A stretch of DNA of 32,155 nucleotides from Methanosarcinaceae archaeon (GTDB lineage Archaea; Halobacteriota; Methanosarcinia; Methanosarcinales; Methanosarcinaceae), in NCBI GenBank assembly GCA_013329415.1, contig DUKH01000067.1:2139-34293 (forward strand), in the 5' to 3' direction. Below are positions 8,942 to 26,451 of this stretch, piece after piece. A program made the translations under genes and the position numbers. Under the pieces are notes generated by a model. The model saw only the letters and a list, made by a program, of their open reading frames with translations. It was not told where the DNA came from and ran no database searches. The first letter of the stretch is position 1. Every line of letters begins with the position of its first letter.

Positions 8942-9137
8942 TGGGGCTGGTGAGATTCGAACTCACGATCGACGGGTCTCTCCGAACAACTGCCTCAACA
9001 GTTTTAGTTCTATGAGCATCAATCAGTGCTCCAACGGCTCCTCATCGCCCTTCCCCGTCGGGAAGAACTCGGTAGACCCGTTGTTCATCATTTTATCCGC
9101 TGGAGCCCGTCGCCATACCGGGCTAGGCCACAGCCCC
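8942..9137 (-). tRNA. tRNA-Trp (CCA anticodon), intron-containing
   Basis: Exon 1 runs from 9137 to 9100: acceptor GGGGCTG, D arm GCC...GGC, anticodon 5' strand ACGGG, loop CTCCAG. Exon 2 runs from 8977 to 8942: A38, anticodon 3' strand CCCGT, T arm GTGAG TTCGAAT CTCAC, acceptor CAGCCCC, discriminator A. Anticodon CCA gives tryptophan. The 122-base intron sits at the canonical 37/38 position. CCA is not encoded (ACC then T). A TATA box lies upstream at 9171-9181 on this strand. Confidence 0.95.
8978..9099 (-). ncRNA. tRNA-Trp intron carrying a box C/D 2'-O-methylation guide
   Basis: Within the intron I read box C ATGATGA (9085-9091), a guide ACGGGTCT (9074-9081), a D'-like CCGA (9069-9072), C' CGATGA (9042-9047), a guide TGGAG (9029-9033) and box D CTGA (9023-9026). 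By the rule that the fifth nucleotide upstream of D/D' marks the target, the D guide pairs with positions 32-36 and marks C34. The D' guide pairs with A36-T43 across the spliced junction and marks C39. This matches the intron guide known from Haloferax tRNA-Trp (positions 34 and 39), except that nucleotide 39 is C here. D' departs from CTGA by one base. Confidence 0.75.
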
Positions 9138-9181: not shown

Positions 9182-9496
9182 TTGTCGGCATGAGGGGCCC
9201 GGGTCATGGATTTTTTGGGGCTTACTGTTCCATAAAGTTTATCTCACTTTGGGGGTGAGAACTTTTCTGGGTTTCTGGAGCTGTGTTTCGGGAAATATTC
9301 ACAAAATCTGTGGTTCCCAACCGGAAAGGTAGAATAATCCGAATTTTGGTATACCCGAGTGTCTGGTGAACCTTTAAGGCCGGGCCGGAACTCTTTGTAT
9401 GGAAGTGTCCAGGGCCTGAACCCTCAAAGCTGAACCTTGAGGATCTTCAAACCTGAACCTTAAGCTGGGCTTTTAAGCCTGAACTCTGCAGGGAAT
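9182..9496. other. Gene-free stretch with CTGAACC repeats
   Basis: No open frame longer than about 22 codons with coding character is apparent. From about 9415 to 9490 there are repeated CTGAACC motifs and small inverted repeats such as CCTCAA...TTGAGG. Nothing else is recognised. Confidence 0.5.
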
Positions 9497-9652
9497 TCAA
9501 GCCAGGTAATTGTAATAAATCCATACCAGGATTGCCAGAATCGCAATTGTAAAAGAGATGTATCCCAGCAGACGAATTATGAAATCATATACGGTTATCT
9601 TACCCGTACCTTTACGGTCGAAGTACTTCGCTATTTTTCTATTTAATCTCAA
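9497..9652 (-). CDS. Small membrane protein with an EF-hand-like loop
   Basis: A 51-residue frame from a TTG at 9652, with GGAGG eleven bases upstream. The N-terminal half is basic and contains FDRKGTGKITVYDF, a degenerate EF-hand-like loop (Asp at position 1, Gly at 6, Ile at 8, Asp at 12, but Lys at 3). The C-terminal half is a single hydrophobic helix (YISFTIAILAILVWIYYNYL). Such an arrangement suggests a peptide held in the membrane with its charged head in the cytoplasm. Coding is supported by clean helix periodicity and the ribosome-binding site; the rare start and 11-base spacing weaken it. Function unknown. Confidence 0.45.
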   Translation of the reverse strand: MRLNRKIAKYFDRKGTGKITVYDFIIRLLGYISFTIAILAILVWIYYNYLA

Positions 9653-9712
9653 TGCTGTTGGAGCCTCCGATTCTATTTTTTCCTCTTATATTGGGAGTTT
9701 TTGCACTTAAAG

Positions 9713-9850
9713 ATGTTTATGACACCTGAAGAAGAAAGGCCCTCAAAGGCTGATCCCAAATCTGTAATGTCTGCCGAAAAAGTTGTATTGAATGACCCGG
9801 GACCAGCTCAGCAAAACGAAAACACTTCTGCGTCAAAACTCCATAAATAA
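9713..9850 (+). CDS. Small hydrophilic ORF, possibly leaderless
   Basis: A 45-residue frame, ATG at 9713 or at 9719. The product is polar and low-complexity, rich in Glu, Pro, Ser, Lys and Asn, with no predicted fold. A TATA-like CTTATATT at 9685-9692 lies about 25 bases before the first ATG, which would fit a leaderless transcript. It diverges from the small membrane protein gene at 9652. The evidence is weak, since a frame this short can occur by chance. Confidence 0.3.
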   Translation: MFMTPEEERPSKADPKSVMSAEKVVLNDPGPAQQNENTSASKLHK

Positions 9851-10182
9851 ATATGGCAAATTTTATACGCTATGAAATGTATGTACTGGATGTACCACAT
9901 TAAAACGAAGGTCTCAAAACTTTATTCGGGTCCTATATATGTATCGTAAAAACGGAACAAAGGGACATTAGGGATAAGTAGATATTTTCACTCAATTGCT
10001 GCGATTACATGCTCATGGTTCACTACATAGGGTTAGAAGTAGAATCAGGGCCTTTTGACGTTTCTGAGACCTATTTTGCTTTTTTTTCATCCATTCGGGA
10101 ACAATTTCCACTAAAAAGGAATTGAAAAATAACAATCCACCATGTAATTTTTTTCAGACAATTACTAATTTTTTTTAGATTG
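9851..10182. other. AT-rich stretch without recognised genes
   Basis: No convincing reading frame on either strand and no RNA gene recognised. Base composition is AT-rich, with several T runs near 10080 and 10147-10176. Confidence 0.5.
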
Positions 10183-10192
10183 TTTTATATAG
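10183..10192 (+). promoter_or_regulatory. TATA box of the small transcript at 10.2 kb
   Basis: TTTTATATAG, a strong archaeal TATA match, would start transcription near 10215. Confidence 0.6.
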
Positions 10193-10211
10193 TATTACTT
10201 CAATTGCTTTT

Positions 10212-10228
10212 TGGCTGATATTCAGCCA
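10212..10228 (+). promoter_or_regulatory. Perfect 7-bp hairpin at the predicted transcript start
   Basis: TGGCTGA, TAT, TCAGCCA forms a perfect seven-pair stem with a three-base loop, at the 5' end expected from the upstream TATA box. It could be an operator palindrome or a 5' stem in the RNA. Confidence 0.5.
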
Positions 10229-10257
10229 CTAACCCAAATAAAAAACGAGGGGATTAA

Positions 10258-10377
10258 TTGGGTATGATTCTTGCAATTGGCTATCTCGTGGTCATCGTGT
10301 GGTGCTTTAGACTGCTTGATGAAGCCAGTTGCAGTATCGCAGCAATCGCCGGCAACATCGCTTCACCGTATCAGTAA
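10258..10377 (+). CDS. Small membrane protein (37-39 residues)
   Basis: TTG at 10258 lies six bases after GAGGGG; the ATG two codons later, at 10264, is the alternative start and is twelve bases from that site. The product begins with a hydrophobic stretch (MILAIGYLVVIVWCFRLL), has two cysteines, and ends in a small-residue segment (SIAAIAGNIASPYQ). Composition is clearly richer in G+C than the surrounding DNA. A TATA box, a 5' hairpin, a ribosome-binding site and a strong 3' hairpin frame it as a transcript of about 220 bases, so it may be a small-protein mRNA or a dual-function small RNA. I do not recognise the family. Confidence 0.5.
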   Translation: MGMILAIGYLVVIVWCFRLLDEASCSIAAIAGNIASPYQ

Positions 10378-10400
10378 TTGAAGTAGTGTACCGTGCGATA

Positions 10401-10430
10401 CTGGAGGGAGAGCCCCCTCTCTTCCTCCAG
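10401..10430 (+). terminator. Strong terminator-like hairpin
   Basis: CTGGAGG then GAGAG, loop CCCC, then CTCTC, a TT bulge and CCTCCAG: twelve base pairs with one bulge, followed by ACAACATTTTC. It ends the small transcript that begins near 10215. Confidence 0.65.
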
Positions 10431-10465
10431 ACAACATTTTCACCTCTTCATGCATATTTCACATT

Positions 10466-10774
10466 TTAAAAGGAGAATTGAAACATCGACTTAAAAATGA
10501 AATACAGATTATTAAGGCAGAGAAAAATTCCAGCTGAAGTAGGAATTGCCGTATATACTTTTCTTAATAATGGTGAAGAAGTTTTGTAAAGATAGACAAA
10601 CACGGGCAGGATTGACATCTTTACTAACAGGAACAAACCCGGCTTTGCCACTATATCATACAGGATGGGATTTCTTTCAACATATCCAAATTCAATGGCA
10701 ATTAATGTAGTTACGAAGTCACCTATAACAAAAAACGTAACGACTGGCAGAGAATATGTGATAAATTTCTTCAT
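10466..10774 (-). CDS. DUF5658-like small membrane protein
   Basis: The 102-residue protein has three or four hydrophobic helices. The N-terminal segment GDFVTTLIAIEFGYVERNP matches the signature of DUF5658-type proteins: a helix with an acidic residue and double threonine, then an E-x-NP motif. The family's function is not known to me. The ATG at 10774 has a modest GAGA upstream, and a TATA-like ACTATATATT lies at about 10802-10811 on the opposite strand sense. It converges on the terminator hairpin of the small transcript. Several neighbouring short frames also encode membrane peptides. Confidence 0.7.
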   Translation of the reverse strand: MKKFITYSLPVVTFFVIGDFVTTLIAIEFGYVERNPILYDIVAKPGLFLLVKMSILPVFVYLYKTSSPLLRKVYTAIPTSAGIFLCLNNLYFIFKSMFQFSF

Positions 10775-10974
10775 ATTTCTCGAAAAATAAACATTTCTAA
10801 TACTATATATTCATTTTTAAAAATATCAATATTGTTTTTTTATTTTTATAACGTTTTATATTTTTGAAGCTTCTTATCTGTTGGGGATTAGAATAGATCA
10901 GTAAGGGTCCGCAGGGGTCGGAAAAAGAGCCTCATAAAAAACTTTAATTTATATGTTTAACATATTGAATCAAG

Positions 10975-11142
10975 ATGAATGTAATGATAGGAGTCTTCAT
11001 ATTTATAATAACATTTGCAACAGCAATTGTATATTTCTCAAAAACAAAAAATTTGACATTCTCGACATTTCGCGATTCAATTTTTATAGCATTATTATTT
11101 GGAGTAATAGCTGCAAGTAGGCAAGAAATACGCGGGTACTAA
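10975..11142 (+). CDS. Small two-helix membrane protein
   Basis: A 55-residue frame with two hydrophobic helices (MIGVFIFIITFATAIVYF and DSIFIALLFGVIAA) separated by a polar, threonine-rich turn with basic residues. A TATA-like AATTTATATG at 10946-10955 ends about 20 bases before the ATG, so the message is probably leaderless; there is no ribosome-binding site. The next small membrane gene starts 41 bases downstream. No family recognised. Two clean helices in such a short frame favour a real gene, but AT-rich DNA can encode hydrophobic peptides by chance. Confidence 0.45.
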   Translation: MNVMIGVFIFIITFATAIVYFSKTKNLTFSTFRDSIFIALLFGVIAASRQEIRGY

Positions 11143-11183
11143 AAATAAGCTACATTTTAGGCTAAAACATTGCTAGTCAGGAA

Positions 11184-11354
11184 ATGTTAAATATGGAGAA
11201 AGTTTCAAAGAAATACCTATTTTTACAGTTCATTACAGCCTTTATAACATGCACATTCTTAGGGTACCTGTTTCACGATGTAATGAATGGAATAATCACT
11301 GGAATTGGCGTTGGAATTGGGTTAATTATAGTATCTGCAATGCAGAACTCCTAA
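11184..11354 (+). CDS. Small two-helix membrane protein, second of a pair
   Basis: A 56-residue frame with start at ATG 11184 or ATG 11193; CAGGAA immediately ahead of the first could serve the second. A basic head (EKVSKKY) precedes helix one (LFLQFITAFITCTFLGYLF), then a HDVMNG turn and a glycine-rich helix two (IITGIGVGIGLIIVSAM). Topology is much like the preceding 55-residue protein, and both are probably on one transcript. No family recognised. The glycine-spaced second helix suggests helix packing or oligomerisation. Confidence 0.45.
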   Translation: MLNMEKVSKKYLFLQFITAFITCTFLGYLFHDVMNGIITGIGVGIGLIIVSAMQNS

Positions 11355-11490
11355 ATTCATTACTTTGTTAAAAATCCGTTGTATCCGGGGTTGTAAACAT
11401 GTAGATACTGGGTAGCTGAATGAGGTAATAATAACTAAATATTTTTGGGGCTTTGTCTTAAAAATAATTTGGACACTAAAGGTGTTTTTA

Positions 11491-12347
11491 ATGACCAAAT
11501 CAGAAACGACTCCTACAGCACAAGTTTTTATGGATATTTTTGATGTTTTTGATGCGAATATTGTACGAATTAATGATTAGGACTTACGCAGTTGAACAAA
11601 AAACCAGTGTCATGAGACACCAAACTGTCTAAATCACAATATTTTTGATAACGCCTTATGCACTTGTTTTCACATTTCAAGTGCGTAACTCCTAAATGAT
11701 GTTGTTAATAATGATTTTTGTGATGCAGCAATAATTATGACAGTCAGTGCGCTAGAGGTTTTTTTCACTGACTTACTCAAAGAATACAAAAATTTCTGGT
11801 TCACTTCGTAGGCCGGAGGTAATATAACTGCGGTAACTCGGGAAAAAAGACTTGAAATTAAAAAAAAATACGTTCATTTTTAATTTCAATTAGGGCATAT
11901 GATGATTTTTTGAAGAATTACTATGTATATCAGGATCAAACAGATCCAGATATTGATAGTATTTATGAAACACTTTTCTTCGGAAATGGCAGAAGTAAAT
12001 TAAATTTTCAAAACTTGAAGGAAGATTATGGTGTAAGGAAAGCATATAATTTGTTTTTTAATGTTGACCTGATGAAAATGCTTGATCCTAATGAAAATGA
12101 ATCTTCTAATAAATGGAATGACTTGAATCTTTTATTTAAAGAAAGACACGATATAGTACACAAAGGAAAAGGCACTTCTTTTTCACAAGATAAAATCAAA
12201 GAAATATTGAAATCCCTAATATACATGAGGGATCGGTTGGCTGAAATAGTGATTCCTCGTTATCCATACCCTGATAGCTGTCTAACGCAAACACCTGCCT
12301 CGCATGAATTTAGAGACTCTTATCCTGCTAAAAAATTACTTACTTGA
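11491..12347 (+). pseudogene. HEPN-type protein gene disrupted by a MITE-like insertion
   Basis: Three pieces read together as one protein. Piece one (11491-11577) encodes MTKSETTPTAQVF to RIND. After the inserted element, piece two continues in the same frame (VVNNDFCDAAIIMTVSALEV then FFTDLLKEY), ending at a TAG at 11809. A shift within an A run near 11861-11869 leads to piece three, open to 12347, which holds KWNDLNLLFKERHDIVHKG. The SALEVFF helix and the RHDIVH (R-x4-H) motif are typical of HEPN RNases of the MAE_28990/RiboL-PSP kind, often toxins. Piece three is open from a TTG at 11910 and could still be expressed alone. The HEPN subtype is uncertain. Confidence 0.65.
11578..11694. mobile_element. 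117-bp MITE-like element with 19-bp inverted ends
   Basis: The left end TAGGACTTACGCAGTTGAA (11578-11596) and the reverse complement of the right end, TAGGAGTTACGCACTTGAA (11676-11694), match at 17 of 19 positions. The element is flanked by a direct 6-bp AATGAT at 11572-11577 and 11695-11700, the expected target-site duplication. It has no coding capacity. Removing element and one duplicate restores the HEPN reading frame exactly. The parent insertion sequence is not in this window. Confidence 0.8.
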
Positions 12348-12807
12348 ATTTTTGTCGTGAACTTTGTTGCCTGTAAACAACTGCCAGGAATTCATTTTCC
12401 AGTAGACTTGCCCCATAGCCTGCAGGAGCGCTAGAATTCTTGTAATCAAAAAAAGGTTCAGTTAATTTAAGGCCTGAAGCCCCATGTTCTACCCTTCATT
12501 TTTTTGACTAATTTTTCCTTCGTCTGCAAGTTTTAGTTATCTATTCCTTGCAAATATTGGATTGAATCCTACCGTTTCAGAAACTTAAGAAGCCGTACAA
12601 GTGGTCTCTTCCATACATTCCGTGACCGCCTTCAAAAAATATTCATCCATAAATTCTTTTGAAAATCGAGAGTCGTTTTCAGTCCTTTGGGAGTGACCCC
12701 ACATTGTAATAAGGATTGAAGGGAACCCTGTATAAAATTTAGATTAGGATATCCTTATAACTCAATGACCCCAAAAAAAGAAGTAAGGCTTTGTACTGAT
12801 AGCTTTA
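12348..12807. other. Non-coding stretch with one possible remnant ORF
   Basis: Mostly unrecognised sequence. On the minus strand, 12585-12704 encodes 39 residues (MWGHSQRTENDSRFSKEFMD, then EYFLKAVTECMEETTCTAS), and the frame stays open about 13 codons upstream (SKFYTGFPSILIT). It looks protein-like and may be the tail of a decayed gene, but I cannot assign it. Confidence 0.3.
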
Positions 12808-24218: not shown

Positions 24219-24237
24219 AAAAATGTGGAGTTGCGAC

Positions 24238-26451
24238 ATGGAATTCAATTTTTCAAGAATGATAGCGGTAGCTGTAGCCGGGCTTATGTTACTGACTCTT
24301 TTAAGCCCTTCAGCTTTTGCGGTTACTTCTGTAAGCAGGAGCATTTCTTACGACACAAACAAAACCTCCTCAAGTGGACTCACATGGGATGCGACTACTT
24401 TTGAAGGCTTTTACTACTCCGTAAACAAGAACGTCAATTACCTCAACGACGGCTGGGGTGAAAGGCTCTACTTCCAGGAGGATGCTGAAAGTGATAACGG
24501 GCCTCTCGGAAATGATGATAACCCTGACAACAATATCATCGATGATGGGGAACTTATCTACACAATCACGCCTTACCCCAGCACCTACAAGCTCGTATCC
24601 GAACTCGGGCTTGCTGCCGACGAGGTCCCTTCCGATGTAGGGGGCACCTGCTACTACGAAACCCCGTGGTTCGGTGTGCCTTACGTTGCTGTTGAAGGTG
24701 ATGCAACCCAGCTTGCCAAACTCGTTTACAAGCAGGGCGGAAGCGACAAGAAGACCGTTAAAGCCGGCGAGAGCTGGGACCTTGGCTGCGGGTATAGCCT
24801 TAACGTAAACCAGGTCGATGTCGATGGTAACAAAGTCTGATTCTCCCTGTACAAGGACGGGGAAGAACTTGAGGACGGCATCATTGATGTTGACAGTACT
24901 GTTGAGAGCCAGACCTTTGCCGCTCGTGCCGATTTCGGTGATGATTCCGACCAGCTTTACTTTATGACCTACGTTGAGCAGGTCTTCCAGGGCAGTGTCG
25001 ACTCCCTTGCTGTTTTCAGGTACACCTGGCTCATTGACAAGGGAAACGTGCTTCTCATCTCCAGTGACGATGTCTACCAGGGCTTCAATGTTGACGTTGC
25101 CTCTGAAGGCGGGCTTGAGCTCTCTAATGACAATTCCATCACAATCGATGTTGAAGACGACCGGAAGACCTACTTCACCGACTCCTGGTACTTCCAGCCC
25201 TCTGATGAGGACAAAGGAACCGGGGGAAACGGTTACATCTTCTATCCCGCAGTGGACAGGAGCCAGCCAGGGACCTATACCGTGAGAGGTATTCCTGTTG
25301 ACACGGCCCTTACCTCTGCTCTGGACTGGAACCCGGCCATTTTCAGGGGTTTCTACTACTCCGTAAACAAGAACGTCAATTACCTCAACGACGGCTGGGG
25401 TGAGAGACTCTACTTCCAGGATGAAGAAGGCAGTGACAACGGCCCTCTCGGAAATGAAGATGACCCTGACAACAATATCATCGATGATGGGGAACTTATC
25501 TACGAAATCACACCCTATACCAGCACCTACAAGCTCGTTTCCGAACTCGGGCTTGCTGCCGAGGATGTCCCTGCGGATGTAGGCGGGACCTGCTACTACG
25601 AAACCCCCTGGTTCGGTGTGCCTTACGTTGCCGTTGAAGGCGATGCCACCCAGCTTGCCAAACTCGTGTACAAGCAGGGCGGAAGTGACAAAAAGAATGT
25701 TAAGGCCGGGGAGAGCTGGGACCTTGGCTGCGGGTACAGCCTCAACGTAAACCAGGTCGATGTTGAAGGTAACAAAGTCTGGTTCTCCCTGTGCAAGGAC
25801 GGGGAAGAACTTGAGGACGGTATCATTGATGTAGACGGCACTGTTGAGAGCCAGACCTTCGTAGCCCGTGCGGATTTCGGGGACGATTCCGACCAGCTTT
25901 ACTTCATGACCTACGTTGAACAGGTCTTCCAGGGCAGCGTTGACTCCCTTGCTGTCTTCAGGTACACCTGGCTTATCGACAATGAAAATGTGCTTCTCAT
26001 CTCAAGCGACGATGTCTACCAGGGCTTCAACGTTGATGTTGCCGCTGAAGACGGGCTTGAGCTCTCAAACGACGATTCCATCACAATCGATGTTGAAGAC
26101 GACCGGAAGACCTACTTCACTGACTCCTGGTATTTCCAGCCCTCCGACGAGGACAAAGGGACCGGGGAAAACGGTTACATCCTCTATCCTGCCTGCGACA
26201 TAACAGTCGAAGCTCCGGAAGAGGAAACCGAATCCGATGAAGTAGGCGAATCCAACGAAACAGAAGTCATCGAACCTGCAGAAGACAAATCTGCCGAAGA
26301 TGAAACCGGAGACGAGCAGGTTAAATCCGGGTCAGAAGAAGAGGAATCCGAAGGTTCGGAACCTGGCAGTGAAGAGAAGTCTCCTGGTTTTGGCCTCCTC
26401 ACGGCGGTCTTCGGAATCTCTGCAGTGGGCTTCCTTGTGAGGAAAAAATAA
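24238..26451 (+). pseudogene. S-layer protein with two S-layer duplication domains, interrupted by one TGA
   Basis: One frame runs from the ATG at 24238 (GGAG seven bases upstream) to 26451, broken only by TGA at 24838, codon 201. It encodes a signal peptide (IAVAVAGLMLLTLLSPSAFA), two Methanosarcina-type S-layer domains (DUF1608 family) offset by 314 residues, a Glu/Ser-rich stalk, and a C-terminal SPGFGLLTAVFGISAVGFLV helix with a basic tail, like PGF-CTERM sorting signals. At the matching place the second domain and the neighbouring paralog both have TGG (NKVWFSL), so TGG to TGA is a single G-to-A nonsense change. Everything else is intact. Such proteins form the paracrystalline cell surface. 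Restart within domain 1 from the ATG at 24964 would lack a signal peptide. Confidence 0.88.

Follow-up and report, generated by a model that had tools for sequence, protein, structure and literature searches.

Positions 10183-10430 had been predicted to specify a self-contained small transcript for a short hydrophobic peptide, which raises the question whether this locus is an independent small gene and, if so, whether it acts through its peptide, its RNA or both. The window, i.e., the whole stretch of 32,155 nucleotides that was analysed, represents contig C4 of the source genome (G000; 226 contigs, 95% complete), which together with G001, G002 and G003 makes up a set of four genomes of one Methanosarcinaceae genus. 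The small unit is located between a minus-strand gene for a small membrane protein and a convergent DUF5658 gene (10466-10774; Pfam PF18902, E 3.4e-8). As originally predicted, a TATA box, a 7-bp hairpin, the motif GAGGGG, a frame of 37-39 codons and a 12-bp terminal hairpin are all present in this order at 10183-10430, and the frame is richer in G+C (50%) than the DNA upstream (33%) and past the terminal hairpin (26%). On the minus strand, a small membrane-protein frame at 9500-9646 (stop codon 9497-9499) has DNA matches in G001, G002 and G003 and contains a weak EF-hand-like stretch below the cut-off (E 0.013).

The TATA (box A) promoter element TTTTATATA occupies 10183-10191 on the plus strand and is conserved in G002, the sole homologue found; the exact sequence TTTATATA occurs three times on the plus strand of the 32-kb window. 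The 7-bp hairpin TGGCTGA-TAT-TCAGCCA (10212-10228, plus strand), which is invariant in G002, begins approximately 25 nt past the TATA box, the position expected for an archaeal transcription start. The hairpin that had been placed at the start of the transcript is present and would form the 5′-end of the RNA, with the start itself being predicted and not mapped. Moreover, the 10-mer TATATAGTAT occurs twice in the window as compared to 0.01 expected occurrences, once in the promoter of the unit (10186-10195, plus strand) and once in the promoter of the DUF5658 gene (10800-10809, minus strand). Both sites are retained in G002, and G001 carries TATATAGTGT 5′ of DUF5658. Judged by this shared element, joint regulation of the unit and the DUF5658 gene is possible.

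Downstream of the predicted start, the presumed ribosome-binding site GAGGGG (10247-10252, plus strand) lies in the large loop of a start-site hairpin with the stem CCCAA...TTGGG (10234-10262, plus strand), which G002 retains with an additional A-U pair created by one change. The frame (10264-10377, plus strand) extends from the ATG at 10264 to the TAA at 10375 and specifies a peptide of 37 residues, for which one membrane helix is predicted; the alternative start codon TTG at 10258 would yield 39 codons. The spacing between GAGGGG and these start codons amounts to 11 nt for the ATG and 5 nt for the TTG. The 3′-end of the frame and the 3′-untranslated part are predicted to form a stem, CGCCGGC...GTACCGTGCG (10347-10398, plus strand), followed by the 12-bp terminal hairpin (10401-10430, plus strand), which includes one G-U pair and exposes the loop CCCCCT (10413-10418). 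Its stem is likewise retained in G002 by a change from G-C to G-U. The terminal hairpin is followed by ACAACATTTTC only, without a long T-run, and was not called at 10401-10430 in a terminator scan. It may also serve the convergent DUF5658 gene.

The homologue in G002 corresponds to the record JAENZL010000006.1, a metagenome-assembled archaeon designated 'BM5_bin.6'. Between G000 and G002, 234 of 250 alignment columns are identical at 10180-10429 (93.6%), as compared to 79/103 (77%) at 10080-10179 and 39/50 (78%) at 10430-10479. The stretches 9530-9929 and 10880-11280, which are partly located outside genes, are also 94-100% identical, and this equal identity counts against the identity of the unit as proof of constraint. 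Furthermore, searches with the peptide, with the DNA of the full unit and with a covariance model (at a meaningful E-value) placed the unit in only two of 111 genomes of the family, so the peptide does not recur across Methanosarcina as had been anticipated. Within the genus it is absent from two of the four genomes. In G001, only about 14 bases separate the match to 9473-9910 from that to 10465-10925, indicating the absence of the unit together with its upstream spacer as one block, and in G003 about 140 bases stand in for 9720-12806.

The peptide search of genome_contigs returned one locus, the G002 record JAENZL010000006.1, and no homologue of the unit was found in viral contigs (searched with the peptide and a DNA pattern) or in plasmids (peptide and DNA). 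Two matches from the phage peptide search were discarded (E at least 3). At the class level, a profile built from the two sequences was searched against 237 genomes. A match in G097 (E 2.5e-4) was rejected, as it lies in another frame of an ORF of 276 aa that looks permease-like by its sequence, and the number of the other weak profile matches (E 0.0036-0.1) is about that expected by chance over 237 genomes. Likewise, a DNA match in G082 comprises just 28 AT-rich promoter bases, and a covariance-model match in G008 reached an E-value of only 0.66; neither was accepted as a homologue. Since the unit is present in a single copy in its own genome, it does not represent a repeat family, as was considered under the reading as a mobile element. 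Its distribution in the genus would reflect either a gain in G000/G002 or a loss in G001.

The surrounding region from 9720 to 12806, beside a tRNA-Ser gene, is variable within the genus. It includes two small hydrophobic frames of 55 and 53 aa (10975-11142 and 11193-11354) with no family above the cut-off. Both have counterparts in G002; for the second, the match covers the first 40 residues and stops with the end of the shared stretch. Neither is found in the corresponding stretches of G001 and G003. An element of about 118 bp at 11578-11694 with the inverted ends TTAGGACTTACGCA... and ...TGCGTAACTCCTAA looks like a MITE by its sequence; it has 14 matching places in its own genome and is located just ahead of what is left of a HEPN-domain frame (11910-12347, PF18735). 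Farther along the window, an S-layer gene (24223-26451) carries an in-frame TGA at approximately 24839, which reflects either a true nonsense codon or an assembly error; the parallel repeat of the gene is uninterrupted at the matching place.

Does the unit then represent a gene at all? The hairpin could merely end the convergent DUF5658 transcript, with the rest of the block being a decaying insert, in line with the location of the 12-bp hairpin about 36 nt past the DUF5658 stop codon and with the retention of DUF5658 in G001 though the whole block is missing. A terminator, however, needs no conserved promoter, leader or frame, and the identity falls on either side of the unit, which renders this explanation very improbable. 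At the level of sequence, the unit is a real feature.

The predicted RNA (10213-10432) has a folding energy of -84 kcal/mol. For 10196-10437 we obtained a fold z-score of -5.5, with none of 200 shuffled sequences being as stable, as compared to -2.9 for the opposite strand. When 194 windows of 220 nt were sampled over both strands of the 32 kb, the lowest z-score (-5.1) was that of the window covering the unit and the next was -3.9, values that are rough given 15 shuffles each. The frame alone is not unusual (z = -0.38), and 10228-10377, which lacks the end hairpins and the 3′-part, is equally ordinary (z = -0.38); extension to 10228-10398 lowers the value to -2.7. Thus, the stability stems from the ends of the RNA and the 3′-stem. 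The sharp-edged conserved block together with this exceptional fold fits the reading of the unit as a self-contained small transcript, as originally proposed.

The consensus fold of G000 and G002 comprises 67 pairs and contains, in both sequences, the predicted 5′-hairpin, the start-site hairpin, a long central stem, the 3′-stem and the terminal hairpin. Two substitutions fall into pairs and each keeps a standard pair; double-sided compensatory changes are absent from the 67 pairs in this comparison of two sequences, and simulation indicates that the structure is preserved in G002 no better than in random mutants (p = 0.13-0.20). An inverted repeat (10196-10208/10373-10385) was dismissed as an end-to-end pairing of the RNA, because the RNA is predicted to start only downstream of the left arm. 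In Rfam, the unit has no match at the gathering score. Elsewhere on the minus strand, an intron-bearing tRNA (8942-9137), presumably tRNA-Trp, holds within its intron a C/D-box RNA of the Rfam family sR3; this tRNA was not reported by ARAGORN as run here.

We then asked whether the frame is translated. The reading as a translated peptide is favoured by its hydrophobicity, by the conservative nature of its replacements and by the intact frame in the homologue. The maximal 17-residue hydropathy of the peptide MILAIGYLVVIVWCFRLLDEASCSIAAIAGNIASPYQ was matched in 0.18% of 5000 shuffled open frames (p = 0.0018), and it is predicted to be a strongly hydrophobic single-helix membrane peptide. The window contains 243 ORFs of 25-60 aa, of which three reach this hydrophobicity and 46 are preceded by an SD-like match of 4 nt or more; the frame of the unit is the only one that combines both, with about 0.6 expected by chance. 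The presence of several membrane microproteins encoded nearby was also counted in favour of a microprotein mRNA. In G002 the frame is free of frameshifts, and the stop codon TAA is changed to ATA, which adds three residues and results in 40 residues from the ATG. Frameshifts with the hairpins alone being conserved, the pattern named as refuting a coding role, are therefore not seen in this homologue. The four amino acid replacements (V/A, D/E, A/T and Q/K) all have BLOSUM62 scores of at least 0, with a mean of 0.75; 6.5% of simulated four-replacement sets are as mild and 4.0% have all four scores at or above 0. The score over all five changes is not unusual (30% of simulations). Searches of the peptide against Pfam, NCBIfam, PHROGs and PDB sequences revealed no family match, the best E-value of 0.047 (PHROGs) lending no support.

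The substitution ratio by itself speaks against constraint on a protein. The original prediction had looked for a conserved peptide with synonymous-site variation, but only one of the five substitutions between G000 and G002 is synonymous and four are nonsynonymous, a ratio as would be seen without protein constraint (Fisher test against neutral site numbers, p = 1.0, with low power given five changes). It differs from that of nine neighbouring genes, pooled after leaving out the two small genes around 10975 and 11193 (276 synonymous and 129 nonsynonymous changes; Fisher p = 0.04). Moreover, only 1 of 25.7 synonymous sites in the frame is changed, as compared to 0.06-0.25 changes per site in the nine neighbouring genes read in frame. 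The coding claim thus stands with regard to hydrophobicity, conservative replacements and the intact frame, and lacks the backing of the synonymous sites.

These results bear on the alternative that the unit specifies a non-coding regulatory RNA, whose frame is incidental and whose terminal loop, being C-rich, would base-pair to G-rich ribosome sites in other mRNAs. Consistent with this notion, leader, frame and 3′-part are under like constraint, the synonymous sites of the frame change less than those of neighbouring genes and show no excess, the stop codon has moved in G002, and a second overlapping frame, which is not hydrophobic, is likewise open in G000 and G002. In addition, sRNA162 of M. 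mazei is described as using a single-stranded linker to mask a ribosome site (PMC3510493). Against it, exactly the frame 3′ of GAGGGG is the one that is unusually hydrophobic, and its replacements are conservative. We therefore consider a purely non-coding RNA unlikely. From the two sequences compared, translation of the frame appears probable, with constraint at the RNA level likely dominating.

How might translation of such an RNA be controlled? In the fold predicted for both species, the large loop of the start-site hairpin leaves most of GAGGGG unpaired, and CCCCTC at 10414-10419 (plus strand) is its exact complement. The match AGGGG/CCCCT is located wholly inside the two loops, and GAGGGG/CCCCTC reaches one base into the terminal stem. 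No 6-nt Watson-Crick match other than the latter connects largely unpaired parts of the RNA. The match is retained in G002, where the terminal loop reads TCCCCT instead of CCCCCT and the change extends it to GAGGGGA with TCCCCTC. This complementarity between the ribosome-site loop and the terminal loop, 6 nt in length and present in both species, is new here. Any 6-nt match between loops was found in 12% of shuffled sequences, and a match opposite the ribosome site in 0.7% of cases when the loop letters were permuted (P = 0.007). The duplex has a calculated stability of -13.2 kcal/mol. Because the two loops are complementary, closure of the ribosome site by the RNA itself is possible, and we propose from the two sequences that the contact with the terminal loop does so. 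The same C-rich loop could pair instead with ribosome sites of other mRNAs.

If the peptide and such pairing with other mRNAs both mattered, the unit would encode a dual-function RNA. This possibility would reconcile conservation at the RNA level with a peptide, and it is in line with the published account of M. mazei, where 21% of 314 unannotated small ORFs found to be translated reside inside sRNA candidates (PMC11456600). The trans target is putative, though, and we regard this variant as distinctly unlikely. A further alternative is a self-closing mRNA whose membrane peptide would inhibit growth in the manner of type I toxins. A short hydrophobic peptide, a folded mRNA and an occluded ribosome site are traits of type I toxins, and the unit combines a short hydrophobic peptide and a stable folded mRNA with a 3′-end that is predicted to occlude the ribosome site. 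Yet, weaker promoters aside, the minus strand of 10200-10520 contains no box A when up to one mismatch is allowed, and an antisense RNA is thus not evident. Moreover, previously known type I systems are placed in three bacterial phyla in the available account (PMC12390103). We consider a toxin of this kind extremely unlikely.

Taken together, the most likely assignment, as far as the sequence allows, is an orphan microprotein mRNA or dual-function RNA that is specific to one small lineage of archaea. More specifically, we see an even chance that 10183-10432 constitutes an independent small gene, i.e., a self-folding mRNA for a single-span membrane microprotein, whose ribosome site would be closed by the 3′-loop. 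Under this model, the TATA box would drive an RNA of about 220 nt with hairpins at both ends, which would be translated from the ATG at 10264 into a single-span membrane microprotein of 37-40 residues. Pairing of CCCCT in the loop of the 3′-hairpin with AGGGG in the loop of the start hairpin would repress translation of the RNA until the contact is opened, and the peptide might then act in the membrane on a partner. Archaeal microproteins and dual-function RNAs are known mostly from few model species, and a lineage-restricted unit with defined ends and the AGGGG/CCCCT contact renders self-regulation of a microprotein mRNA directly testable. Were it only a non-coding RNA, the unit would still represent a clean orphan small RNA gene of the kind that annotation would overlook.

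The closest parallels are provided by M. mazei, a member of the same family. Half of its 314 unannotated translated small ORFs comprise at most 30 aa, and sORF_05 of strain Go1 is reported as a membrane-associated hydrophobic helix (PMC11456600). Like these, the unit would yield a short hydrophobic, helical membrane peptide, here predicted, from a small transcript; in contrast to them, where the source reports translation as measured, translation is inferred here, and the peptide is present in two of 111 family genomes with no sequence relative in the others searched. The transporter-regulating small protein sP36 of M. mazei, which regulates AmtB1 and to which the original prediction alluded by analogy, is likewise a small protein of this archaeal family and acts at the membrane. 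However, sP36 is described as soluble, hydrophilic and devoid of a transmembrane helix (PMC10714827), unlike the predicted single-span membrane peptide, and no transporter gene directly adjoins the unit. The analogy with a transporter regulator is thus weak at best. With sRNA162, as it is described, the unit shares a multi-hairpin structure, homologues in few close relatives and a presumed action on a ribosome-binding site. In contrast to its linker, the candidate pairing segment here is a hairpin loop, and the complementary site is located in the same RNA.

Finally, the unit resembles by prediction the type I toxin mRNAs of bacteria, which are described as combining a short hydrophobic peptide with a folded mRNA in which a distant segment closes the ribosome site. 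It differs from them in its archaeal host and in that no antisense RNA promoter was found. It is thus conceivable, though in our estimate quite improbable, that a kissing contact between start-loop and 3′-loop allows an archaeal mRNA to shut its own ribosome site and thereby to control a membrane-active microprotein. Such an mRNA would be a functional, but not an evolutionary, counterpart of the self-closing type I toxin mRNAs of bacteria.
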